From a bacterium (GTDB lineage: Bacteria > Actinomycetota > Acidimicrobiia > Spongiisociales > UBA5794), in the NCBI GenBank assembly GCA_024226255.1, contig JAAELU010000748.1:1-53019 (forward strand): a DNA stretch of 53,019 nucleotides, written 5' to 3'. Below, one piece after another: positions 35,294 to 46,322 of this stretch (its first letter is position 1; each line of letters begins with the position of its first letter). A program made the position numbers and the translations under genes. The notes beneath the pieces were generated by a model. It saw only the letters and a program-made list of their open reading frames with translations, was not told where the DNA came from and did no database searches.

Positions 35294-35953
35294 CTACGTT
35301 TCAACGGTTTGCGGTTTCCTGACGGGTTCCGGCGCCGGAGCTGTGAACACCCGGTCGCCGGGCCGCACCGTCACCGCGTCTTGTCCTTCATCGAGAACAA
35401 GTAGAAAGCCCCGTCGGCCTCGACCTAGGAAGCGCAGAGTCTCGCGCAGCTCATCCTTCGGCATCTCGACGTGTTGGTTCTGAGCGCAGAACTGACTGAA
35501 TTCGACGCAGGGTGCGGCGAAGCTGACGAAGCTCAACCTCGCCAAATCGCTGGTGTCCTGGTTCTCGATCTCCACAAAGCCGTGTATGTCTTCGGGCCAA
35601 ATCTCGCGTGGTGTGTCGATGACTATGTTTTCGCCCGCAATGCCGTCCACCATGTGCGCTCCGAACTTGGAGCGCATCGATTCGTAGTGTGACGTGAATC
35701 CGATGCACACCAAGTCGTCATCGTCGTATGCCTTGCGTGGGTGACTCAGATGATGCACGTCAAGCACATGTGTGCCGTCTGCGAGCGTTGCCTCAATTCC
35801 CTTCGAAGTGATGACCAGCCGGTCAACCTCGACTCGGCGGCTCGAGTCGTAGAAGGAACCGGTGGGCGTGTCCGGGCGGTCGATGATGAGGCCTTCTGGT
35901 TGAACCTGAACCACCGCTACCTCCCCAAGTTGGTTGGCTCGTCGGTTTCGCAT
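35294..35953 (-). CDS. MOSC-domain-like protein
   Basis: MVDGIAGENIVIDTP, FAAPCVEFSQFC, RGFLLVLDEGQDAVTVRPGDRVF. Confidence 0.65.
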   Translation of the reverse strand: MRNRRANQLGEVAVVQVQPEGLIIDRPDTPTGSFYDSSRRVEVDRLVITSKGIEATLADGTHVLDVHHLSHPRKAYDDDDLVCIGFTSHYESMRSKFGAHMVDGIAGENIVIDTPREIWPEDIHGFVEIENQDTSDLARLSFVSFAAPCVEFSQFCAQNQHVEMPKDELRETLRFLGRGRRGFLLVLDEGQDAVTVRPGDRVFTAPAPEPVRKPQTVET

Positions 35954-35962
35954 CGTGGTCCT

Positions 35963-36451
35963 TCAGTTGTGGCGAATCGGCGGAATGCCCCACGCATAGG
36001 TTTGTTTGGTCAGCTTGAGATACGTGTGAGCCTCCAGAGACGAGATTCCCACGAGTCCGCGCAGGTCGGCCATGACCTCTAGGAGGTGATCGTTGTTGGC
36101 GCACAGGACTTCGACCAGAAGGTCGAAGCGGCCGGCCGTCATCACTACGTACACGGCGTATTCACGTTTCCCGATTTCGTCGCTGAGCGCCTCGATGTCT
36201 CCGTCGACTCTCAGACCCACCATCGCTTGAACCGTGAAGCCGATACGCAGTGGGTCCGTAATCGCAACGATCTCCAGGACGCCGGATTCGATCAGCCGAT
36301 TGACCCGCAGTCGAATTGCCGCCTGGCTCAGCTCGATCCCCTTCGCCAGGTCGGCATAGTTGGCGCGCCCGTTTAACTGGAGCGCGGCAATGATGTCGAG
36401 ATCCCGCTCATCGACGTCGGGCGTCCTGGATGCGTCGTTGTTCTGAACGAT
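35963..36451 (-). CDS. Lrp/AsnC-family regulator, apparently AUC-initiated
   Basis: Frame extended upstream of track ORF 35963..36223 gives IVQNNDASRTPDVDERDLDIIAALQLNGRANYADLAKGIELSQAAIRLRVNRLIESGVLEIVAITDPLRIGFTVQAMVGLRVDGD (HTH + effector domain). No ATG/GTG/TTG between the upstream in-frame TGA and 36223; AAAGGAG at 36460-36466 lies 8 nt before ATC. Confidence 0.8.
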   Translation of the reverse strand: MVQNNDASRTPDVDERDLDIIAALQLNGRANYADLAKGIELSQAAIRLRVNRLIESGVLEIVAITDPLRIGFTVQAMVGLRVDGDIEALSDEIGKREYAVYVVMTAGRFDLLVEVLCANNDHLLEVMADLRGLVGISSLEAHTYLKLTKQTYAWGIPPIRHN

Positions 36452-36482: not shown

Positions 36483-36599
36483 CTCAGATTTCACTACTTT
36501 TGTCGCCCCATTTCTACTATTTGATCAGCAACAGGGTGAATTAGCTTGCGGATGGTTCGATTCCCGTGCTATCAATAGCAGCATTGCGAATTCTGCTCG
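36483..36599 (+). promoter_or_regulatory. Two-box promoter/regulatory module, copy 1
   Basis: Box A CTCAGATTTCACTACTTTTGTCGCCCC (36483); Box B GCTTGCGGATGGTTCGATTCCCGTGCTATCAATA (36544) with TTGCGG-18-TATCAA. Confidence 0.75.
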
Positions 36600-36624
36600 T
36601 GTTGACGAGTGATTGAGAGGGCCG

Positions 36625-37989
36625 ATGACAGCCAATATCAGTCCGGATCGTGTCGCCGAACTCACGAAGTCGATGGAGGAGGCGTTGCGGCTCCGTACTC
36701 GTCGCTCTGGAGAGTTTGTCGAGGAAGCCAAGCAAGTCCTTCCGTCGGGGGTTGCATCGTCCTTTCAAGAGAACTCACCCCATCCCATCTACATCGTCGA
36801 AGGCCAGGGTTCCAAGGTCACCGACCTCGACGGCAACGAGTACAGCGACTTCCACAACGGTTTCGGGGTGATGGTCGTCGGCCATGCTCACCCCGTCGTG
36901 GCCGCCGCCATCGCCGAGACAGCCAAGAAAGGGACCCATTTCGCGGCACCCAACGAAGGTTCCGTGACAGTCGCTCGCGAGCTGTCTCGCAGGTTTGGGC
37001 TTCCCAAGGTGCGGTTCTCAAACTCCGGTACCGAAGCGACGCTGGATGCGATTCGTTTGGCCAGAGCGTTCACCGGCAAAGATGGACTGATCAAGATTGA
37101 GGGTTCCTACCACGGCCATCACGATGCCGTGATGGTCTCGGTGCATCCCGACCCTGAGAAGATGGGACCACGGGCCCATCCGATTTCTGTTCCGCAGTCC
37201 GCCGGCATTCCGCAGGCGCTCCTGGACATGACGGTCGTCGTACCGTTCAACGACCCGGACGCCCTCGACGCGGCACTCACGGCGAACAACGACATCGGCA
37301 CAATGATCATCGAGCCGATCATGCTGAACATCGGAGTCGTGCCGCCCAATGATGGCTATCTGCAAGCAGTCCGCGAGATCACCCGCAAACACGGCGTGAT
37401 ATTGATTTTCGACGAGGTAAAGACCGGGGCGACTGTCGCCGCCGGCGGTGCGGTGGAGAAATACGGAGTAGCCCCGGACCTCGTCGCCTTGGCCAAGGCG
37501 ACCGGCGGCGGGACACCCATCGGGGCGGTTCTCGGTACCGAGGAGATCATGGCTCAGATCTCAGAAGGGACTGTCGCGCAGATCGGAACCTTCAACGGCA
37601 ACCCGCTCACGATGGCAGCGGCCGAGGCGACGTTGCTCAGCGTGCTCGATGCGGATGCTTATGTCGGGCTCGACCGGATCGGCGGGCGGATACTCGCCGG
37701 CTGCCAGGACGTGTGTGATCGTTACGGGCTGCCGGCCTACGCAGTGGGGGTCGCCTCGAAAGGTTGCGTGATGTTCGCCAGCGATCACGTCGTCGACTAC
37801 AGGTCCTACGTCGAGCACTTCGACGACAGTCTCAACTACCTCGGTTGGCTTTATCACATGGTCAATGGGGTCTATATGACGCCGGGCGCCGACGAACAGT
37901 GGACTCTCTCGGTGATGCACAGCGACGCCGAGATCGATCATTACGTCGCAGTATTCGAGGAGTTCGCCCGGGACATCACGAACGGATAG
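36625..37989 (+). CDS. Class III PLP aminotransferase (glutamate-1-semialdehyde aminomutase-like)
   Basis: VRFSNSGTEATLDAIRLARAFTGKDGLIKIEGSYHGHHD; LIFDEVKTG; LVALAKATGGGTPIGAVLG. Confidence 0.9.
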   Translation: MTANISPDRVAELTKSMEEALRLRTRRSGEFVEEAKQVLPSGVASSFQENSPHPIYIVEGQGSKVTDLDGNEYSDFHNGFGVMVVGHAHPVVAAAIAETAKKGTHFAAPNEGSVTVARELSRRFGLPKVRFSNSGTEATLDAIRLARAFTGKDGLIKIEGSYHGHHDAVMVSVHPDPEKMGPRAHPISVPQSAGIPQALLDMTVVVPFNDPDALDAALTANNDIGTMIIEPIMLNIGVVPPNDGYLQAVREITRKHGVILIFDEVKTGATVAAGGAVEKYGVAPDLVALAKATGGGTPIGAVLGTEEIMAQISEGTVAQIGTFNGNPLTMAAAEATLLSVLDADAYVGLDRIGGRILAGCQDVCDRYGLPAYAVGVASKGCVMFASDHVVDYRSYVEHFDDSLNYLGWLYHMVNGVYMTPGADEQWTLSVMHSDAEIDHYVAVFEEFARDITNG

Positions 37990-38099
37990 GAGATGCTGCG
38001 AGCTGTTGCTCTGGGAATCATTGTGAGACGCAGGAATGGTTCCGGGGCTGAGCGCCCGAGTGACACACCGCCCGAATTTCGAATGGAAGGACGTCGCAA

Positions 38100-40553
38100 A
38101 TGAGCACTGAGCTGCCGGATCGCGCTCAGGTAGTGATCGTCGGCGGAGGCGTGATCGGTGCCAGTGTCGCCTATCACCTGACGAAACTCGGTTGGACCGA
38201 TGTTGTTCTCATAGAGCGCGACAAACTCACGTCCGGCACTACCTGGCATGCGGCCGGTCTCATCGTATCCGGCGGCATGACGACCGAGACCTCGGCGTGG
38301 ATGGCGCGGTACACCCGCGAGCTCTACGAGGTGCTCGAGGAGGAAACGGGACTCTCGACCGGATTCAACCCCATTGGTTATCTGCAGACCGGAGCCACGC
38401 CAGACCGTATCGACAAGCTGCGGCGTGAGGCCGACTTCTTGCGGTGCGTCGGCATCGAGCGCGAGGAAATCTCACCCGCCGAGGTGCAGAATCTTTGGCC
38501 AATACTCGATGCGAGTGACGTAATGGCGGGGTTCTATACCGCCAACGAGGGTCAGGCCGATCCGGCCAATTGCGCTATGTCGCTTGCCAAAGGGGCGCGG
38601 ATGGCGGGTGTGCGGATTATCGAAGACACTCCGGCGACCGGATTCGTCATTGACAAAGGTCGGATCAAGAGCGTCAAGACTAAGCGGGGCGACATCGAGT
38701 GTGAGCATGTCGTCAACTGCGCCGGCGCGTGGGCGCGCCAGCTTGGAGCGATGGCAGGCGTCTCGGTCCCGCTTCAGGCCGCCGAACACGCGTACTTGAT
38801 CACGGACCAGATCGAAGGCATCGAGGTGATGCCGATCCTGGAGGACCCCGACCGCTACGCCTACTACCGCGTGGAGGCCGGGGGGTTGATGGTCGGGCTA
38901 TTCGAGCCGCTGGCTGCTCCCTGGAGCGTCAAGGGTGTTCCCGAGGACTTCAGTTTCGGCGAGATTCCGAATGATTGGGATCGGCTGGCTCCGTTCCTCG
39001 AGAGTGCCATGGAGCCGCTTCCCGTGCTGCAGGAAGTGGGCGTGCGCAAGCTGTTCACCGGGCCCGAGAGCTTCACGGCGGACAACGGCTCGCTGATGGG
39101 TCCGGCGCCGGAGGTGGAGAACTTCTGGGTCGCTGCCGGGTTCAACTCGCTCGGCATCCTGCTCGGCGGCGGCGCCGGCAAGATCATGGCGCATTGGATG
39201 GTTGAGGGACTACCGCCGGTTGATGTGACCGAGGTCGACATCGCCCGTGTGCACCCTTACGAAGCCACCCCACGCTTCCGTAGCGACCGGACGGTTGAGC
39301 TGCTGGGCAGACTCCACTCGACAGGCTCCTGGCCGCACTCGCAGCCCATGCGAGCGCGCAACGCTCGGCGGTCGTCGCTGCACGATCGCCTGGGCGCCGC
39401 CGGAGCCCACTTCGGCGTCTCGGCCGGTTGGGAGAACACTGAGTGGTTCGCTCCACCCGGCGCCGAGATTCCACACGAGCGCTCGTACCGACGACAAGCG
39501 TGGTGGCAGTACCACGAGGCGGAGCATCACTCGACCCGCAACGATGTCGCCCTCTTTGACATGTCTTCGATGTCCGACTTCCTCGTTGAGGGGCCAGATG
39601 CCGAACGTCTGCTGAATCGACTCAGCGGCAACAACGTCGCTGTGGAGCCCGGCCGTTGTGTCTATACGCAATGGCTGAACACAGCCGGCAAGGTGCTCGC
39701 CGATCTGACCGTCACCAGGCTCACCGATGTGAGCTTCATGGTGGTAGTGGCCGAGGGATTCCACCGGCGTGTCGACATGATGATGCGGCGCGCCATCGGC
39801 CCAGATGACCGCGTATCGATTCACGATGCGACATCCGGTATCACACTCATGAGTGTGCAGGGACCCAAGTCGCGGGATCTGCTGTCGAAGATCACGGATG
39901 CCGACCTCTCCAATGAGTCGTTCCCGTACTTCACGGCACAGCAGATTGACCTCGAGTTTGCGGTCGGTTGGGCGTTCCGCATGAGTTTTGTCGGCGAGCT
40001 TGGCTGGGAGCTGCTGGTTCCGACCGAGTTCAGCCTTGGCGTATACGACGCCTTGGTGCGAGAGGGGGCGCCATTCGGTCTCGCCCATGCCGGAATGGCC
40101 ACTCTCGAGAGCGCACGGACCGAAGCTGGACGCAAGGACTACGGACTCGACATGGAGAACACGGACTCGCCTCTCGAGGCAGGTCTTCGCTTCGCTATTG
40201 ACTTCGACAAGCCCGGGGGATTCGTCGGGCGCGACGCGCTGCTCAAGGACATCGAGGCTGGGCCCCTGAAGGCGCGGTTGGTTCAGTTCCTTCTCGAAGA
40301 TCCTGAACCGTTGCTTTTTGGAGAGGAGCCCATCTATCGAGACGGCGAGAGAGTGGGATATCTCCGCTCGGGCAACTACGGCCATACGCTCGGCGCTGCG
40401 ATGGGCTTCGGATACGTCGAGGATGAAGACGGTGTCACCCCTGACTACGTGAAAGCAGGTCGCTACGAGATTCAGGTCGCCGGCGAGATGATTCCCGCCA
40501 AAGCTTCGCTGCGGCCGATGTACGACCCCAAGGGCGAGCGCGTTCGGATGTGA
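38100..40553 (+). CDS. Dimethylglycine/sarcosine dehydrogenase-like FAD oxidoreductase fused to GcvT-like domain
   Basis: VVIVGGGVIGASVAYHLTKLGWTDVVLIERDKLTSGTTWHAAGL; C-terminal ALFDMSSMSDFLVEGPDAERLLNRL and ESARTEAGRKDYGLDMENTDSPLEAGL. Confidence 0.92.
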   Translation: MSTELPDRAQVVIVGGGVIGASVAYHLTKLGWTDVVLIERDKLTSGTTWHAAGLIVSGGMTTETSAWMARYTRELYEVLEEETGLSTGFNPIGYLQTGATPDRIDKLRREADFLRCVGIEREEISPAEVQNLWPILDASDVMAGFYTANEGQADPANCAMSLAKGARMAGVRIIEDTPATGFVIDKGRIKSVKTKRGDIECEHVVNCAGAWARQLGAMAGVSVPLQAAEHAYLITDQIEGIEVMPILEDPDRYAYYRVEAGGLMVGLFEPLAAPWSVKGVPEDFSFGEIPNDWDRLAPFLESAMEPLPVLQEVGVRKLFTGPESFTADNGSLMGPAPEVENFWVAAGFNSLGILLGGGAGKIMAHWMVEGLPPVDVTEVDIARVHPYEATPRFRSDRTVELLGRLHSTGSWPHSQPMRARNARRSSLHDRLGAAGAHFGVSAGWENTEWFAPPGAEIPHERSYRRQAWWQYHEAEHHSTRNDVALFDMSSMSDFLVEGPDAERLLNRLSGNNVAVEPGRCVYTQWLNTAGKVLADLTVTRLTDVSFMVVVAEGFHRRVDMMMRRAIGPDDRVSIHDATSGITLMSVQGPKSRDLLSKITDADLSNESFPYFTAQQIDLEFAVGWAFRMSFVGELGWELLVPTEFSLGVYDALVREGAPFGLAHAGMATLESARTEAGRKDYGLDMENTDSPLEAGLRFAIDFDKPGGFVGRDALLKDIEAGPLKARLVQFLLEDPEPLLFGEEPIYRDGERVGYLRSGNYGHTLGAAMGFGYVEDEDGVTPDYVKAGRYEIQVAGEMIPAKASLRPMYDPKGERVRM

Positions 40554-40614
40554 GTGCTGCTGTTGGTCCTGGGCGTCGGGCTTCCCCAGCTACCAGAAAC
40601 AGGACAACGTATTG

Positions 40615-40730
40615 CTCAGATTTCGCTACTTTTGTCCCCTCTCAGTTGCCGATTGGGCAAAAAAGTCTGACTTTCGCTTGCGGATGGCTCGATTCACCTG
40701 CTATCAATACCCCATTGTGAATTCCTGTCG
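40615..40730 (+). promoter_or_regulatory. Two-box promoter/regulatory module, copy 2
   Basis: Box A CTCAGATTTCGCTACTTTTGTCCCCT (40615); Box B GCTTGCGGATGGCTCGATTCACCTGCTATCAATA (40676); 61-nt A-B spacing as in copy 1. Confidence 0.8.
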
Positions 40731-40933
40731 ATTCGCTGAAGGTGACACGAACCGGCTGCCGGTGGCTGCGGGCAAGCTTGGGTATCAACAGCTCCCTCAC
40801 AGTTCGACCACGGGATTCCTCACCTCGCCGACAGTTTCGATCCGAATCATCGCTCCGTCGGAAGATCTCTCGGAGGCGCACGCGTGACCCAGCCGGCGCC
40901 TTCGACGTAATCGTGAAAGGAAGTGGATCTCGC

Positions 40934-42358
40934 ATGGACCTGCGCAACTACATCGGAGGGGAGTGGCGACCGTCGTCAGACGGAGCTACCGAGCAAGTCC
41001 TGAATCCCGCCACTGCAGAGTCTTTGGGAGCCGCACCTGCAAGCACGCCGGCCGACGTGGACGCGGCAGTCAAGGCTGCTGCCGCTGCGTTCCCGGAATG
41101 GTCTGACAAGACGCCGCGGGAGCGATCCGAAACCATTTTCAAAATCGCCGATGTGATCGAGGCCAACCTTGATGAGCTGGCGAAGCTCGAGATCGCCAAT
41201 GTCGGCAAGCCCGTCTCAATCATCGAATTCGAATTCGATCTCACGCTCGACAACTGGCGCTTCTTTGCGGGAGCGGCCCGCCACATCGAGGGCAAGGCGG
41301 CGGGCGAGTACTGGACCGACGCCACGTCGTACGTGCGACGCGATCCGCTTGGGGTCGTCGCCGCGATAACGCCGTGGAACTACCCGCTGAACATGGCGAC
41401 CTGGAAGTTGGGCCCGGCTCTGGCTGCTGGGAACACGATTGTCCTCAAGCCCTCAGAGGTGACCCCGCTGACCGCCGTCCGCCTTGCCGAGCTGTTGGAA
41501 GACGTACTGCCCCCGGGAGTGCTCAATGTTGTATGCGGGACCGGTCCGGTTGTCGGAGAGGCAATGTCGGCGCATCCCGATATCGCCATGATCTCGATCA
41601 CCGGCAGCGTTGGGGCGGGAAGAGCGGTAGCACGCACAGCTTCCGAGACCCTCAAGCGGGTCCACCTCGAACTCGGGGGCAAGGCTCCAGTTGTTGTCTT
41701 CGACGACGCTGATGTTGGTGCAGTCGCCGAAAAACTCAGAGAAACAGGCTTCTACAACTCAGGCCAGGATTGCACAGCTCCGTGCCGTGTGATTGCGACT
41801 GCTGGTGTCCATGGCGATCTCGTGGATGCTCTCGAGGACCAGGTCAGTCAGATCAGCGTCGGTGATCCCACCGATCCCGATGTGGAGATGGGACCGCTGG
41901 TTTCGGCAACGCAACTCGATCGTGTCTCGGGTTACGTGGATCGGGCTGTGGCCGAGGGTGCCAAGGTGGTGCGTGGCGGTAATCGTCTCGACGGTGTCGG
42001 CTACTACTACGAGCCATCTCTGATCACAGTCGCCGACCAGAAGTCGGAGATCGTTCAGCGCGAGGTCTTCGGGCCCGTCATCACCGTGCAGAGCGCTGCC
42101 GACGAGGCCGAGGCCCTGGCTTGGGCCAATGATGTCGACTACGGACTGGCGGCATCGGTCTGGACCAGAGACGTCGGACGTGCCATGCGGATGTCAAAGC
42201 GGCTTCGGTTCGGGGCGGTGTGGGTCAATGACCACATCACGATTGTCTCCGAAATGCCCCATGGCGGATTCAAGAATTCGGGCTACGGCAAGGACATGTC
42301 GGCGTACGCTCTCGAGCACTTCACAGAGGTCAAGCACGTGATGATCAACCATGCGTAG
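40934..42358 (+). CDS. Aldehyde dehydrogenase (betaine/aminobutyraldehyde dehydrogenase-like)
   Basis: [59 protein letters not shown]; track ORF 40742 over-extended. Confidence 0.93.
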
Positions 42359-42394: not shown

Positions 42395-43474
42395 GTGACC
42401 GCAAGTACCGCTGCTGTTGGCATCCACGGTGTCACCAAGAGGTTCGGTGAGGACGTCGTGGCTGTCGACGACATCGACCTCGAGATTCAGGACGGCGAGT
42501 TCTTCTCCCTTCTCGGTCCGTCGGGTTGCGGCAAGACCACAACGCTACGAATGATCGCCGGTCTCGAATACCCCACAGCGGGCAGCATTCGCATCTTCGG
42601 CGAGGAGATGGGGCTCAGGCCGCCCAACAAGAGACCGATCAACACCGTGTTCCAGTCCTATGCCCTGTTCCCTCACATGAACGTCGAGGACAACATCGGA
42701 TTCGGGCTGCGGATGCAGAAGGTGGAGAAGGCGGAAGTCAGCTCCAGGGTGGGGGAGGCCATCGATCTGGTCAGACTCACCGGGTTGAATAGTCGACGGC
42801 CGGGTGAACTCTCGGGCGGCCAGCAGCAACGTGTTGCGTTGGCGCGCGCTCTTGTGAATCGACCCAAGGTTCTCCTCCTGGACGAGCCGCTCGGAGCGCT
42901 CGACCTCAAGCTCAGGCAGACGATGCAGCTCGAGTTGAAGGACATTCAGAGCAACGTTGGCATCACCTTTGTCTACGTGACTCACGACCAAGAGGAAGCT
43001 CTGACCATGTCTGATCGGATCGGTGTGATGAACCACGGACAGCTTGTTCAGGTCGGTCGTTCCGAAGACATCTACGAGTTTCCGAGCAATATGTTCGTGG
43101 CTGGCTTCGTCGGCGAAATGAGCTTCCTGCCAGGCGAAGTCGTCGAAACTGGATCGGTTCGCCTTGCCGGCGGGGAGGTCGTCCGCGCAAGAACCGACTC
43201 GAGCCCCGGGACGAGCATCACCCTCATCCTGCGGCCCGAGAAGCTTCACCTGTATGGAGAAGTCTCCGAGGTCCCTCCTGGCCGCAACGTCCTGAACGGC
43301 TCCGTCTCGAGGAGGACCTTTTACGGGAACTCGCTGTCCTACGAAGTCGAGCTCGGTGCGTCAGGCTCGTTCGATGTGCAGGTCGAGAACGTACCCAGCC
43401 AGACTCGCTGGGACGTGGGCGACAAGGTGGTTATCGACTTCCACCATGAGGCTGCATCGGCGTTGGCCGAATGA
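42395..43474 (+). CDS. potA: Spermidine/putrescine-type ABC transporter ATP-binding protein (GTG start)
   Basis: LLGPSGCGKTTTLRMIAGLE; LSGGQQQRVALARAL; TOBE-like C-terminus. Confidence 0.9.
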   Translation: MTASTAAVGIHGVTKRFGEDVVAVDDIDLEIQDGEFFSLLGPSGCGKTTTLRMIAGLEYPTAGSIRIFGEEMGLRPPNKRPINTVFQSYALFPHMNVEDNIGFGLRMQKVEKAEVSSRVGEAIDLVRLTGLNSRRPGELSGGQQQRVALARALVNRPKVLLLDEPLGALDLKLRQTMQLELKDIQSNVGITFVYVTHDQEEALTMSDRIGVMNHGQLVQVGRSEDIYEFPSNMFVAGFVGEMSFLPGEVVETGSVRLAGGEVVRARTDSSPGTSITLILRPEKLHLYGEVSEVPPGRNVLNGSVSRRTFYGNSLSYEVELGASGSFDVQVENVPSQTRWDVGDKVVIDFHHEAASALAE

Positions 43475-44376
43475 CGCTGACCGACGAGCGGAAGCCCTCC
43501 GAGGAGGAGGCGGCAAACCCCGAACTGGAACGCGGGGCCGAACGACGCGAGGCGTGGCGCGGTTTTCTCCATGCTGTTCCTGCATACGCGTATTTGATTG
43601 TGTTCTTCGTGCTACCGCTGGTCATCGTGTTTGTCTTTTCCTTTGCCAGCCGGGGCCGAACCGGGAGGCCCTTGCTAGAGGACTGGAACGTCGACGGATG
43701 GGCCAGACTCACTGACCCGCTGGTGAGAACCATTGTGGGCCGGTCCCTTCTGGTAGCGGTCATGAACACGGTCTTTTGTCTCGTCATCGGATACGCCTTC
43801 GCCTACTGGATCGCGACTCGACGGAAACAAAGCACACGGACCCTCCTGTTGATCCTTGTCCTCATTCCGTTCTGGTCGAACTTCCTGGTTAGAACTTACG
43901 CGTGGCGGATGTTGCTCGACTCGGACGGCTACATCACTCAGCTTGGCGAATTCACCGGGCTGTGGGGCCGCACGCTCTTCACCCTGCCCGCGGTTTTTCT
44001 CGGCCTGTTGTATGGGTACCTGCCGTTCATGGTGCTCCCCCTTTATGCCGCTATTGAGCGGATCGATTGGAGCCTGGTGGAGGCCGGTAGAGATCTGTAC
44101 GCCTCCGGCGTGAAGGCTTTCCTTCGGATCACCTTGCCTCTGTCGCGTCCCGGGATTATTGCCGGATCGATTCTCGTGTTCGTTCCCAGCCTCGGCGCCT
44201 ACGTGACGCCTGACATACTCGGCGGGGCGAAGACGACGCTGTTGGGGAACTTCATCGTCACCCAGTTTGGTGCGGCGCGCAATTGGCCGTTTGGCTCAGC
44301 ACTATCCGGGGCAATACTGATCGTGATGCTGCTGGCCACGATCCTGTACTTCCGTACCGGAGGGAGGACGGTATGA
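43471..44376 (+). CDS. potB: Spermidine/putrescine-type ABC transporter permease
   Basis: 301 aa TM protein, IERIDWSLVEAGRDLYASGVKAFLRITLPLSRPGIIAGSILVFVPSLGAYVTPDILGG; overlaps potA stop. Confidence 0.9.
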   Translation: MTLTDERKPSEEEAANPELERGAERREAWRGFLHAVPAYAYLIVFFVLPLVIVFVFSFASRGRTGRPLLEDWNVDGWARLTDPLVRTIVGRSLLVAVMNTVFCLVIGYAFAYWIATRRKQSTRTLLLILVLIPFWSNFLVRTYAWRMLLDSDGYITQLGEFTGLWGRTLFTLPAVFLGLLYGYLPFMVLPLYAAIERIDWSLVEAGRDLYASGVKAFLRITLPLSRPGIIAGSILVFVPSLGAYVTPDILGGAKTTLLGNFIVTQFGAARNWPFGSALSGAILIVMLLATILYFRTGGRTV

Positions 44377-45179
44377 CGTCACGTCACGCCGCTTCGGGCC
44401 GCACGCGGACGGATCGTTGGCTCTCCTTGAACGGCTGGTTCGTATTTGCGTTTCTGTACCTGCCGATCCTGGTGGTCATCGTGTTCTCGTTCTCGGGAGC
44501 GGCCAATGTCGGCACGTGGGGCGGGTTTTCCCTCCGTTGGTACCGGCGGTTGGCTGGCAATGAGCAATTGCTGGCCTCGCTCGAGAACTCACTGTGGGTT
44601 GCTCTGTATTCAACGATCGTTGCCACTGTGTTTGGTACCGCGGCGGCGCTCGCCCTGGATCGTTACCGACGCTGGGCGAGTCGCGGCACGTTCGATGCCA
44701 TCCTGTACCTGCCTGTCATCATTCCCGACGTGACGATGGCCGTGATGCTTCTGCTGTGGTTCACCCAGATCGGGTTGCCATTGGGGCGGGCATCGATCAT
44801 CTTGGCCCATATTGCCTTCAATATCTCGTTCGTGGCGATCGTTGTCCGCGCCAGGTTGGCCCACATGGATTCGTCGATGGAAGAGGCTGCGGCCGATCTC
44901 TACGCGACCCGGTGGCAGACCTTCCGCCGTGTGACGTTGCCACTGATCATGCCGGGCGTTCTCGGTGGGGCACTACTCGCCCTGACCCTCTCTTTGGACG
45001 ATGTCGTGATCACGAGCTTTGTCCAGGGCCCCGGATCGACGACGCTGCCCGTCCATGTCTTCGGGCTCATCAGGCGTTCGGTAACTCCAGAGATCAACGC
45101 CGTCTCTACTCTGATGGTGACCGCATCCATGATTCTTGTTTTTTCATCTCTAGCAATACAACGTCGAGGAGAGAACTAG
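44373..45179 (+). CDS. potC: Spermidine/putrescine-type ABC transporter permease
   Basis: MDSSMEEAAADLYATRWQTFRRVTLPLIMPGVLGGALLALTLSLDDVVITSF; overlaps potB stop; track ORF 44283 over-extended. Confidence 0.9.
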   Translation: MTSRHAASGRTRTDRWLSLNGWFVFAFLYLPILVVIVFSFSGAANVGTWGGFSLRWYRRLAGNEQLLASLENSLWVALYSTIVATVFGTAAALALDRYRRWASRGTFDAILYLPVIIPDVTMAVMLLLWFTQIGLPLGRASIILAHIAFNISFVAIVVRARLAHMDSSMEEAAADLYATRWQTFRRVTLPLIMPGVLGGALLALTLSLDDVVITSFVQGPGSTTLPVHVFGLIRRSVTPEINAVSTLMVTASMILVFSSLAIQRRGEN

Positions 45180-45188
45180 GAGGAATAG

Positions 45189-46322
45189 ATGAAACGTTTA
45201 CTGATCGTAATGGCTGCCCTCGCCCTGGTGGCAACGGCATGCGGAGGTGGGAGTGACTCCCAGGCTTCGGCCGATGATTGCACGCTTGGCCAGACCGACG
45301 GCGATCTCAATCTGTACAACTGGACCGAGTACATCCCGACCGGGTCATTGGCCGAGGAGGCCGAGGTGACCGACCTCATCGCCGCCTTCGAGGACGAGTT
45401 CGGCGTGAATGTGGTGCTTACCGAGTACGACTCCAACGAGACGATGCTCGCCCAGATTGACGCCGGTGTGGCCTACGACGTCGTCGTGCCATCGGACTAC
45501 ATGGTGTCGATCATGCGGTCGGATGACCTGCTCGTGAAGCTCAATCCGGACACAGTCCCCAACATGGCAAACATCGCCGACGAATTCACCGCTCTGCCGT
45601 ATGACCCGGGGAACCTGTACTCCGCTCCGTACCAATGGGGCACCACCGGAATCGGCTACAAGTACGGCGAAATCGATGATGAGAACGGCGTCTCGTGGGG
45701 CGTGATCTTCGACCCGGCGATGAATGCCGACAATACGGGCTTCATCTCATTGCTCGACGACGAGCGTGAAACGATGGGGGCAGCCCTCATCTACCTGGGC
45801 TACTCCCTCAACACGACGAGTGAAGCTGAGGTCGACGAAGCGGCGGCTCTGATTAAGGCGACCAAGGACCGGATTGCGGCCTTCTCGTCAGCCGGGTACT
45901 GGGATCTGCTGACCAGCGGCGAGACGATGGTCTCGCAGGGATGGAATGGCGACTTCCTGGCGGCCTACGACGAGGCGTCGACCGACGAATACGACGCCTA
46001 CGAGGACTTCGGCTACGCCATCCCGACGGAGGGCGCCGCGGCCTGGGTCGACACGATTGCCGTTCCGGCAACGGTGGAACATCCGTGCACCGCACAGACG
46101 TTCATCAACTTCATCCTCGACGCTAAAAACGGCGCGACGCTGACCAACTACAACTACTACGCCAGCCCCAACGCGGCGGCGGAGGAGTTCATTTGGGAAG
46201 ACATTCTCGAATGGGAAGCCATCTATCCGCCGGATGATGTGGTGCAGAGGCTCGAATTCTTCGAGGATCTCGGCGACTTCGGCACCTATTACGCAGATGC
46301 GTATTCAGCTGCCAAGAGCTGA
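45189..46322 (+). CDS. potD: Spermidine/putrescine-type substrate-binding lipoprotein
   Basis: Lipobox MKRLLIVMAALALVATACGGG; LNLYNWTEYIP; AYDVVVPSDYMVSIM. Confidence 0.9.
   Translation: MKRLLIVMAALALVATACGGGSDSQASADDCTLGQTDGDLNLYNWTEYIPTGSLAEEAEVTDLIAAFEDEFGVNVVLTEYDSNETMLAQIDAGVAYDVVVPSDYMVSIMRSDDLLVKLNPDTVPNMANIADEFTALPYDPGNLYSAPYQWGTTGIGYKYGEIDDENGVSWGVIFDPAMNADNTGFISLLDDERETMGAALIYLGYSLNTTSEAEVDEAAALIKATKDRIAAFSSAGYWDLLTSGETMVSQGWNGDFLAAYDEASTDEYDAYEDFGYAIPTEGAAAWVDTIAVPATVEHPCTAQTFINFILDAKNGATLTNYNYYASPNAAAEEFIWEDILEWEAIYPPDDVVQRLEFFEDLGDFGTYYADAYSAAKS

Follow-up and report, generated by a model that had tools for sequence, protein, structure and literature searches.

A 53,019-nt stretch of DNA (the window) from an uncultured actinobacterium contains two copies of a module of about 110 bp, one upstream of a class-III aminotransferase gene and the other 4.1 kb further on, upstream of an aldehyde dehydrogenase gene. 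The host genome is a 4.99 Mb draft in 778 contigs. Judged by its sequence the module is a conserved, duplicated operator-promoter, of which a first-pass annotation had caught both ends. We think it probable that each copy is a four-site operator-promoter for the Lrp/AsnC-family regulator encoded divergently from the aminotransferase, and that four dimers of this protein, forming an octamer, would repress both transcription units until released by an amine-derived effector.

The two copies and their relatives

The ends of the module are Box A and Box B, which the first-pass annotation had placed twice in the window with a start-to-start distance of 61 nt. Both the copies and the fixed spacing are real. 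On the forward strand, Box A lies at 36483..36504 in copy 1 and 40615..40636 in copy 2, and Box B at 36544..36577 and 40676..40709. Each box has two matches in the window and no third at up to three mismatches, and 100 shuffles gave none; the same tolerance applied to the whole 4.99 Mb returns the same two copies of each, and no others. Identity runs on past Box B, where CATTGYGAATTC is common to both copies. The interval between the boxes had been described as unconserved, and its overall identity is indeed low (16/40 columns), but a middle box (TTGCCGATnnGnCA) recurs within it. In copy 2 this is a 15-bp semipalindrome, TTGCC-GATTG-GGCAA, at 40646..40660, while copy 1 has a divergent form at 36514..36528 that shares 7/16 positions with copy 2.

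How far is the module preserved in other genomes? We examined two members of the window's genus (G034 and G035), one of its family (G001) and two genomes of another family in the same order (G088 and G087). Orthologues of the aminotransferase that follows copy 1 are 77-88% identical, and an Lrp orthologue (66-82%) is divergent from the aminotransferase gene in all five. When the lrp/aminotransferase intergenic regions are aligned, the distance between Box A and Box B in G034, G035 and G088 is exactly that of both window copies. G087 retains the middle and Box B parts, with Box A gone, and the intergenic region of G001 contains no convincing element. The middle box of copy 2 (TTGCCGATTGGGCA) has 10-13 of 16 positions in common with those of G035, G034, G088 and G087.

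The composite pattern, with its spacing fixed and up to three mismatches allowed, was searched for in 138 genomes of the order. Reversed as a control, the pattern matched by chance about ten times under the same conditions, so only matches with no more than one mismatch were accepted. There are five of these, namely the two window copies and those of G034, G035 and G088. A model made from G034, G035 and G088 only finds copy 2 of the window at 57.6 bits (E 5.7e-17) and copy 1 at 42.6 bits (E 2.7e-12), and also matches the middle and Box B part in G087 (E 0.001). A model made from all six copies (two in the window and one each in G034, G035, G088 and G087) found no further copy in 12 genomes, the window's own among them, so that the regulon, as marked by the element, would comprise a single site in the relatives and a pair in the window. 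No copy of the module was found in front of the further aminotransferase orthologues in G128, G114, G059, G057, G061, G097 and G098.

As a yardstick of constraint we took identity at the 4-fold codon sites of the aminotransferase gene, which is 47-53% among the window, G034, G035 and G088. Box A of copy 1 is identical to that of G088 at 17/18 positions, where the 4-fold sites of the pair stand at 47%, and among the five copies with a Box A the pairwise figure is 11-17/18. Pairs of Box B agree at 23-33/38 (30/38 for copy 1 and G088). The identity of spacers and flanks is, for the most part, close to or under the 4-fold level. The first-pass annotation had named free variation in relatives as an outcome that would overturn its reading; because the identity of the blocks is above the 4-fold level, free variation is rejected, with both boxes and their spacing kept in G034, G035 and G088. 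This conservation across relatives bears out the reading of the element as a regulatory promoter.

The same comparison makes it very unlikely that the two copies are a recent duplication or an assembly artefact under no functional constraint. The genome is a draft of 778 contigs and copy 2 occurs in this genome only, as such an origin would have it. Yet copy 2 is identical to copy 1 at 66/96 positions and to G088 at the same 66/96, and is thus not a very recent duplicate; the boxes are retained while the remainder is not; and copy 2 lies within one contig, flanked by intact genes.

G088 (locus L059, G088:C133) belongs to the other family, and its aminotransferase and Lrp are 87 and 81% identical to those of the window, where members of the window's own genus have 84-88 and 75-82%, respectively. 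In this cluster G088 is as close to the window as the window's own genus is, which suggests that the lrp-aminotransferase cluster has spread horizontally.

Four dyads over a putative promoter

We scanned a 125-column gapless alignment of the six copies for symmetry, counting complementary pairs in seven-base arms with the innermost pair excluded. The three highest of the 222 centres are at columns 99.5, 47.0 and 72.5, and the best regular set of four is 18.5/47.0/72.5/99.5, with gaps of 28.5, 25.5 and 27 bp. Equally good sets of three or four centres arose in 0/400 column shuffles that keep conservation and composition, and in 0/300 shuffles within 12-column blocks. The leading centres are stable at arm lengths of 6-8 and when any one sequence is dropped, apart from small swaps. 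Scored by themselves, the window copies reach 0.67, 0.67 and 0.83 at centres 2-4 (ranks 2, 2 and 1 of 222) but only 0.33 at centre 1. When the scan is confined to the four relatives, centre 4 stays in first place, centre 2 shares third place, and centre 3 is outscored by its neighbour at 74.5.

Placed on the window, site 1 is held within Box A (centres 36492.5 and 40624.5 in copies 1 and 2), site 2 is the middle box (36521 and 40653), and sites 3 (36546.5 and 40678.5) and 4 (36573.5 and 40705.5) fall in and about Box B. In copy 1 site 3 is TTAGCTTGCGGA at 36541..36552 and site 4 is TGCTAT-CA-ATAGCA at 36567..36580. A two-sided change is seen at site 3, where TTCG-N4-CGAA in G034 becomes TTCA-N4-TGAA in G035. 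The site 1 dyad is clear in G035 (AGATTGCGCTATCT) and G034 only. What is found is several imperfect semipalindromes at regular spacing, as in multi-site operators of the Lrp type. Targets of this family are described as clusters of imperfect semipalindromes with their centres two or three helical turns apart, wrapping around oligomers (PMC2995911), and the layout of the module fits an Lrp-family oligomer of four dimers.

Box B had been proposed as a promoter with TTGCGG-18-TATCAA. These hexamers are present (36546-36551 and 36570-36575 in copy 1, with TGC before TATCAA) but weak, matching consensus at 3/6 and 4/6 with a TGn extension, and a consensus scan of the region finds no sigma-70 promoter of at least 9/12. 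The position of the weak hexamers with their TGn is constant across all six copies. Box B thus remains a putative promoter, and it also holds sites 3 and 4, of which site 3 spans TTGCGG (the proposed -35) and site 4 spans TGCTATCAA (the proposed -10). The predicted start site in copy 1, near 36582, would leave about 43 nt of leader, including the ribosome-binding site GAGAGGG, ahead of the aminotransferase ATG at 36625. Box A, which the first-pass annotation took for a distal regulator site at about -90, is indeed centred about 90 bp upstream of this start; it is one of four dyad sites and not the sole regulator site.

The leader before the aldehyde dehydrogenase is longer, at about 220 nt, and might have suggested an RNA leader or riboswitch instead of DNA operators. 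We regard this as extremely improbable. There is no Rfam match near either copy, the one sub-threshold match lying inside the aminotransferase gene; the conserved block stops near the proposed start site; and nothing corresponding to the long leader is seen at copy 1 or in the relatives. The stretch between copy 2 and the start of the aldehyde dehydrogenase gene, 40710-40933, has no recognisable content.

The candidate regulator and its mode of action

The regulator gene, lrp, lies at 35963..36451 on the reverse strand and encodes a protein of 162 aa with an AsnC-type helix-turn-helix and a ligand-binding domain. PF13412, PF13404 and PF01037 are all over their cut-offs, placing it in the Lrp/AsnC (FFRP) family with an N-terminal winged helix-turn-helix and a C-terminal RAM domain. 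The named equivalogs of NCBIfam (LysM, AsnC, LrpA and E. coli Lrp) are all far under cut-off, the best being LysM with 58.6 of 180 bits. No ATG, GTG or TTG precedes residue 77 in the frame, and the best start is an ATC (36449-36451, reverse strand) 8 nt after AAAGGAG, where the orthologues in G034, G035 and G001 have ATG. The ATC could be a near-cognate start, or else it reflects a sequencing error or a damaged gene. Next to lrp, 35294-35953 on the reverse strand encodes a 219-aa protein with no Pfam match, which is kept (61-70%) near lrp in G034, G035 and G088.

An lrp orthologue adjoins the element, divergently, in every genome that carries it, which makes Lrp the natural cognate regulator and the obvious candidate for the protein that binds the module. 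Could another regulator, encoded elsewhere, bind it instead, with lrp merely adjacent? Copy 2 is not beside lrp, no Lrp consensus shared by the four dyads is apparent by eye, and binding by Lrp is itself inferred. Yet across the 138 genomes the element occurs solely beside the lrp-aminotransferase pair, save for copy 2 at 4.1 kb; aminotransferase orthologues without this lrp are also without the element; and several semipalindromes at regular intervals are what Lrp-family targets typically show (PMC2995911). A different regulator is therefore unlikely.

The closest worked example is BarR of the Sulfolobales, where lrp is divergent from an aminotransferase gene and 15-bp semipalindromes with spacings of 27 and 29 bp are bound by one octamer (PMC10201364). 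The likeness is one of layout: a divergent lrp/aminotransferase pair, a shared control region and regularly spaced semipalindromes. This divergent layout with sites in the shared region is found in the window, G034, G035, G088 and G087. BarR differs in its archaeal promoters and its AT-rich TTG...CAA 15-mer sites. Its footprint spares the aminotransferase promoter, in contrast to the two dyads that cover the -35 and -10 in the present case, and unlike the BarR sites the module also precedes a second transcription unit. LrpA of Mycobacterium (Rv3291c) is likewise an actinobacterial Lrp adjoining an aminotransferase gene, lat (Rv3290c), and binding upstream of lat has been reported (PMC4726150, citing Reddy et al. 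2008). In the parts of that account drawn on here LrpA is described as a global starvation regulator and a duplicated module is not reported. The nearest solved mycobacterial-type Lrp/AsnC chain, 4pcq, is a distant relative of the window protein (E 2e-5). PA2577, BkdR and KynR of Pseudomonas are also local Lrp/AsnC regulators of a divergent catabolic or transport gene with a shared intergenic region, and PA2577 is a repressor (PMC8707732); they have other targets, and the portion of this account on which we rely reports no four-site array at two units. We found nothing closer than these proteins in the literature on actinobacterial polyamine-linked Lrp.

In the mechanism that we favour, the four imperfect dyads would be filled by the four dimers of one octamer, with the DNA bent or wrapped, and the bound form would most likely shut the promoter. 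The position of sites 3 and 4 on the -35 and extended -10 favours repression relieved by an effector, with activation as its chief rival. The effector would be an amino acid derived from an amine, such as gamma-aminobutyric acid (GABA) or a related catabolite, that alters the oligomer and frees the promoter. Copy 1 would govern the aminotransferase transcript and probably lrp as well, as site 1 is about 40 bp upstream of the proposed lrp start on the opposite strand. Binding by Lrp, the four dimers, repression, the effector and the start sites are all elements that we infer.

Activation would have Lrp bind chiefly Box A and the middle box and aid polymerase at Box B, a weak promoter in which the palindromes would be incidental or the promoter's own. 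The core promoter is poor enough for this, with no sigma-70 match of at least 9/12; BarR of A. hospitalis (Ah-BarR) activates the divergent aminotransferase gene, the promoter of which is unprotected in the footprint (PMC10201364); and G087, without Box A yet with the middle box and Box B, indicates that the parts are separable. Against this, the strongest dyads are sites 3 and 4, over the -35 and -10 and in register with site 2. An activating Lrp is possible, though we consider it doubtful.

Several points weigh against the repressing four-site operator. The dyad at site 1, absent from G087, is also weak in G088 and in each of the window copies, and the four dyads have no obvious common sequence. 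The array rests on just six sequences, all related, and the arm length was fixed after some palindromes had already been spotted by eye. The gaps of 25.5-28.5 bp correspond to 2.4-2.7 turns at 10.5 bp, compared with the two or three whole turns reported as the rule for Lrp-family targets (PMC2995911), even if Ah-BarR is reported to have spacings of 27 and 29 bp. BarR represses itself but activates the aminotransferase gene (PMC10201364). Lastly, the linkage of lrp and the element could be mere neighbourhood.

Amine genes and a split operon

The first gene after copy 1 is the class-III aminotransferase (36625..37989, forward strand, 454 aa). It is followed on the same strand by a fusion of a flavin adenine dinucleotide (FAD) oxidoreductase and GcvT resembling dimethylglycine/sarcosine dehydrogenase (38100..40553), after which come copy 2, the aldehyde dehydrogenase (40934..42358, forward strand) and a polyamine-type ABC transporter, potA (42395-43474), potB, potC and potD (45189-46322), occupying 42395..46322 of the forward strand. 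The aldehyde dehydrogenase belongs to the aminobutyraldehyde dehydrogenase subfamily (NCBIfam NF010000, 703.9 bits with a cut-off of 615), and PotA is over its polyamine transporter subfamily cut-off. These assignments make it likely that the part after copy 2 acts on putrescine or a related amine.

In the relatives these genes stand behind the aminotransferase. The order is aminotransferase, aldehyde dehydrogenase, potA in G068; aminotransferase then aldehyde dehydrogenase (81%) in G088, reaching the contig end; and aminotransferase then potA (85%) in G087. A search of seven related genomes at E 1e-140 found no aldehyde dehydrogenase orthologue, but the truncated copy in G088 also escapes detection at this threshold. 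The window differs in that the dimethylglycine-dehydrogenase-like gene splits the aminotransferase from the aldehyde dehydrogenase, and copy 2 precedes the latter. Through copy 2, the switch that acts on copy 1 would also govern the aminobutyraldehyde dehydrogenase and polyamine-transporter genes, a joint control that the relatives would reach by keeping those genes behind the aminotransferase. One possible origin of copy 2 is a second aminotransferase operon that has lost its first gene but kept its promoter; short-word BLAST and a six-frame translation inspected by eye revealed no remnant of an aminotransferase or lrp around copy 2, including the 224 nt after the module.

A bolder scheme would make Lrp strictly local, its whole regulon being two complete four-site modules 4.1 kb apart that are bridged by one higher-order Lrp assembly, with the genes between them forming a regulated loop and the second module standing where another catabolic gene broke the operon. 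We think this improbable.

A further arrangement is seen in G005 (L114 1290-1520, reverse strand; G005:C60), where an lrp orthologue is immediately upstream of an aldehyde dehydrogenase orthologue on the same strand. The gap between them contains TTGCCGATCC...CAA and CAATAGCG, recalling the middle box and the end of Box B.

A local Lrp switch is of a known kind; the second copy within a split operon is unusual. An operator of a local Lrp in uncultured actinobacteria is thereby predicted purely from sequence, with exact centres for mutation. The window also provides a natural pair of copies in which site 2 is strong in one and weak in the other, a ready test of the roles of site number and spacing in control by Lrp. 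On this reading, a broken operon can retain its control through a whole regulatory module placed before each piece.

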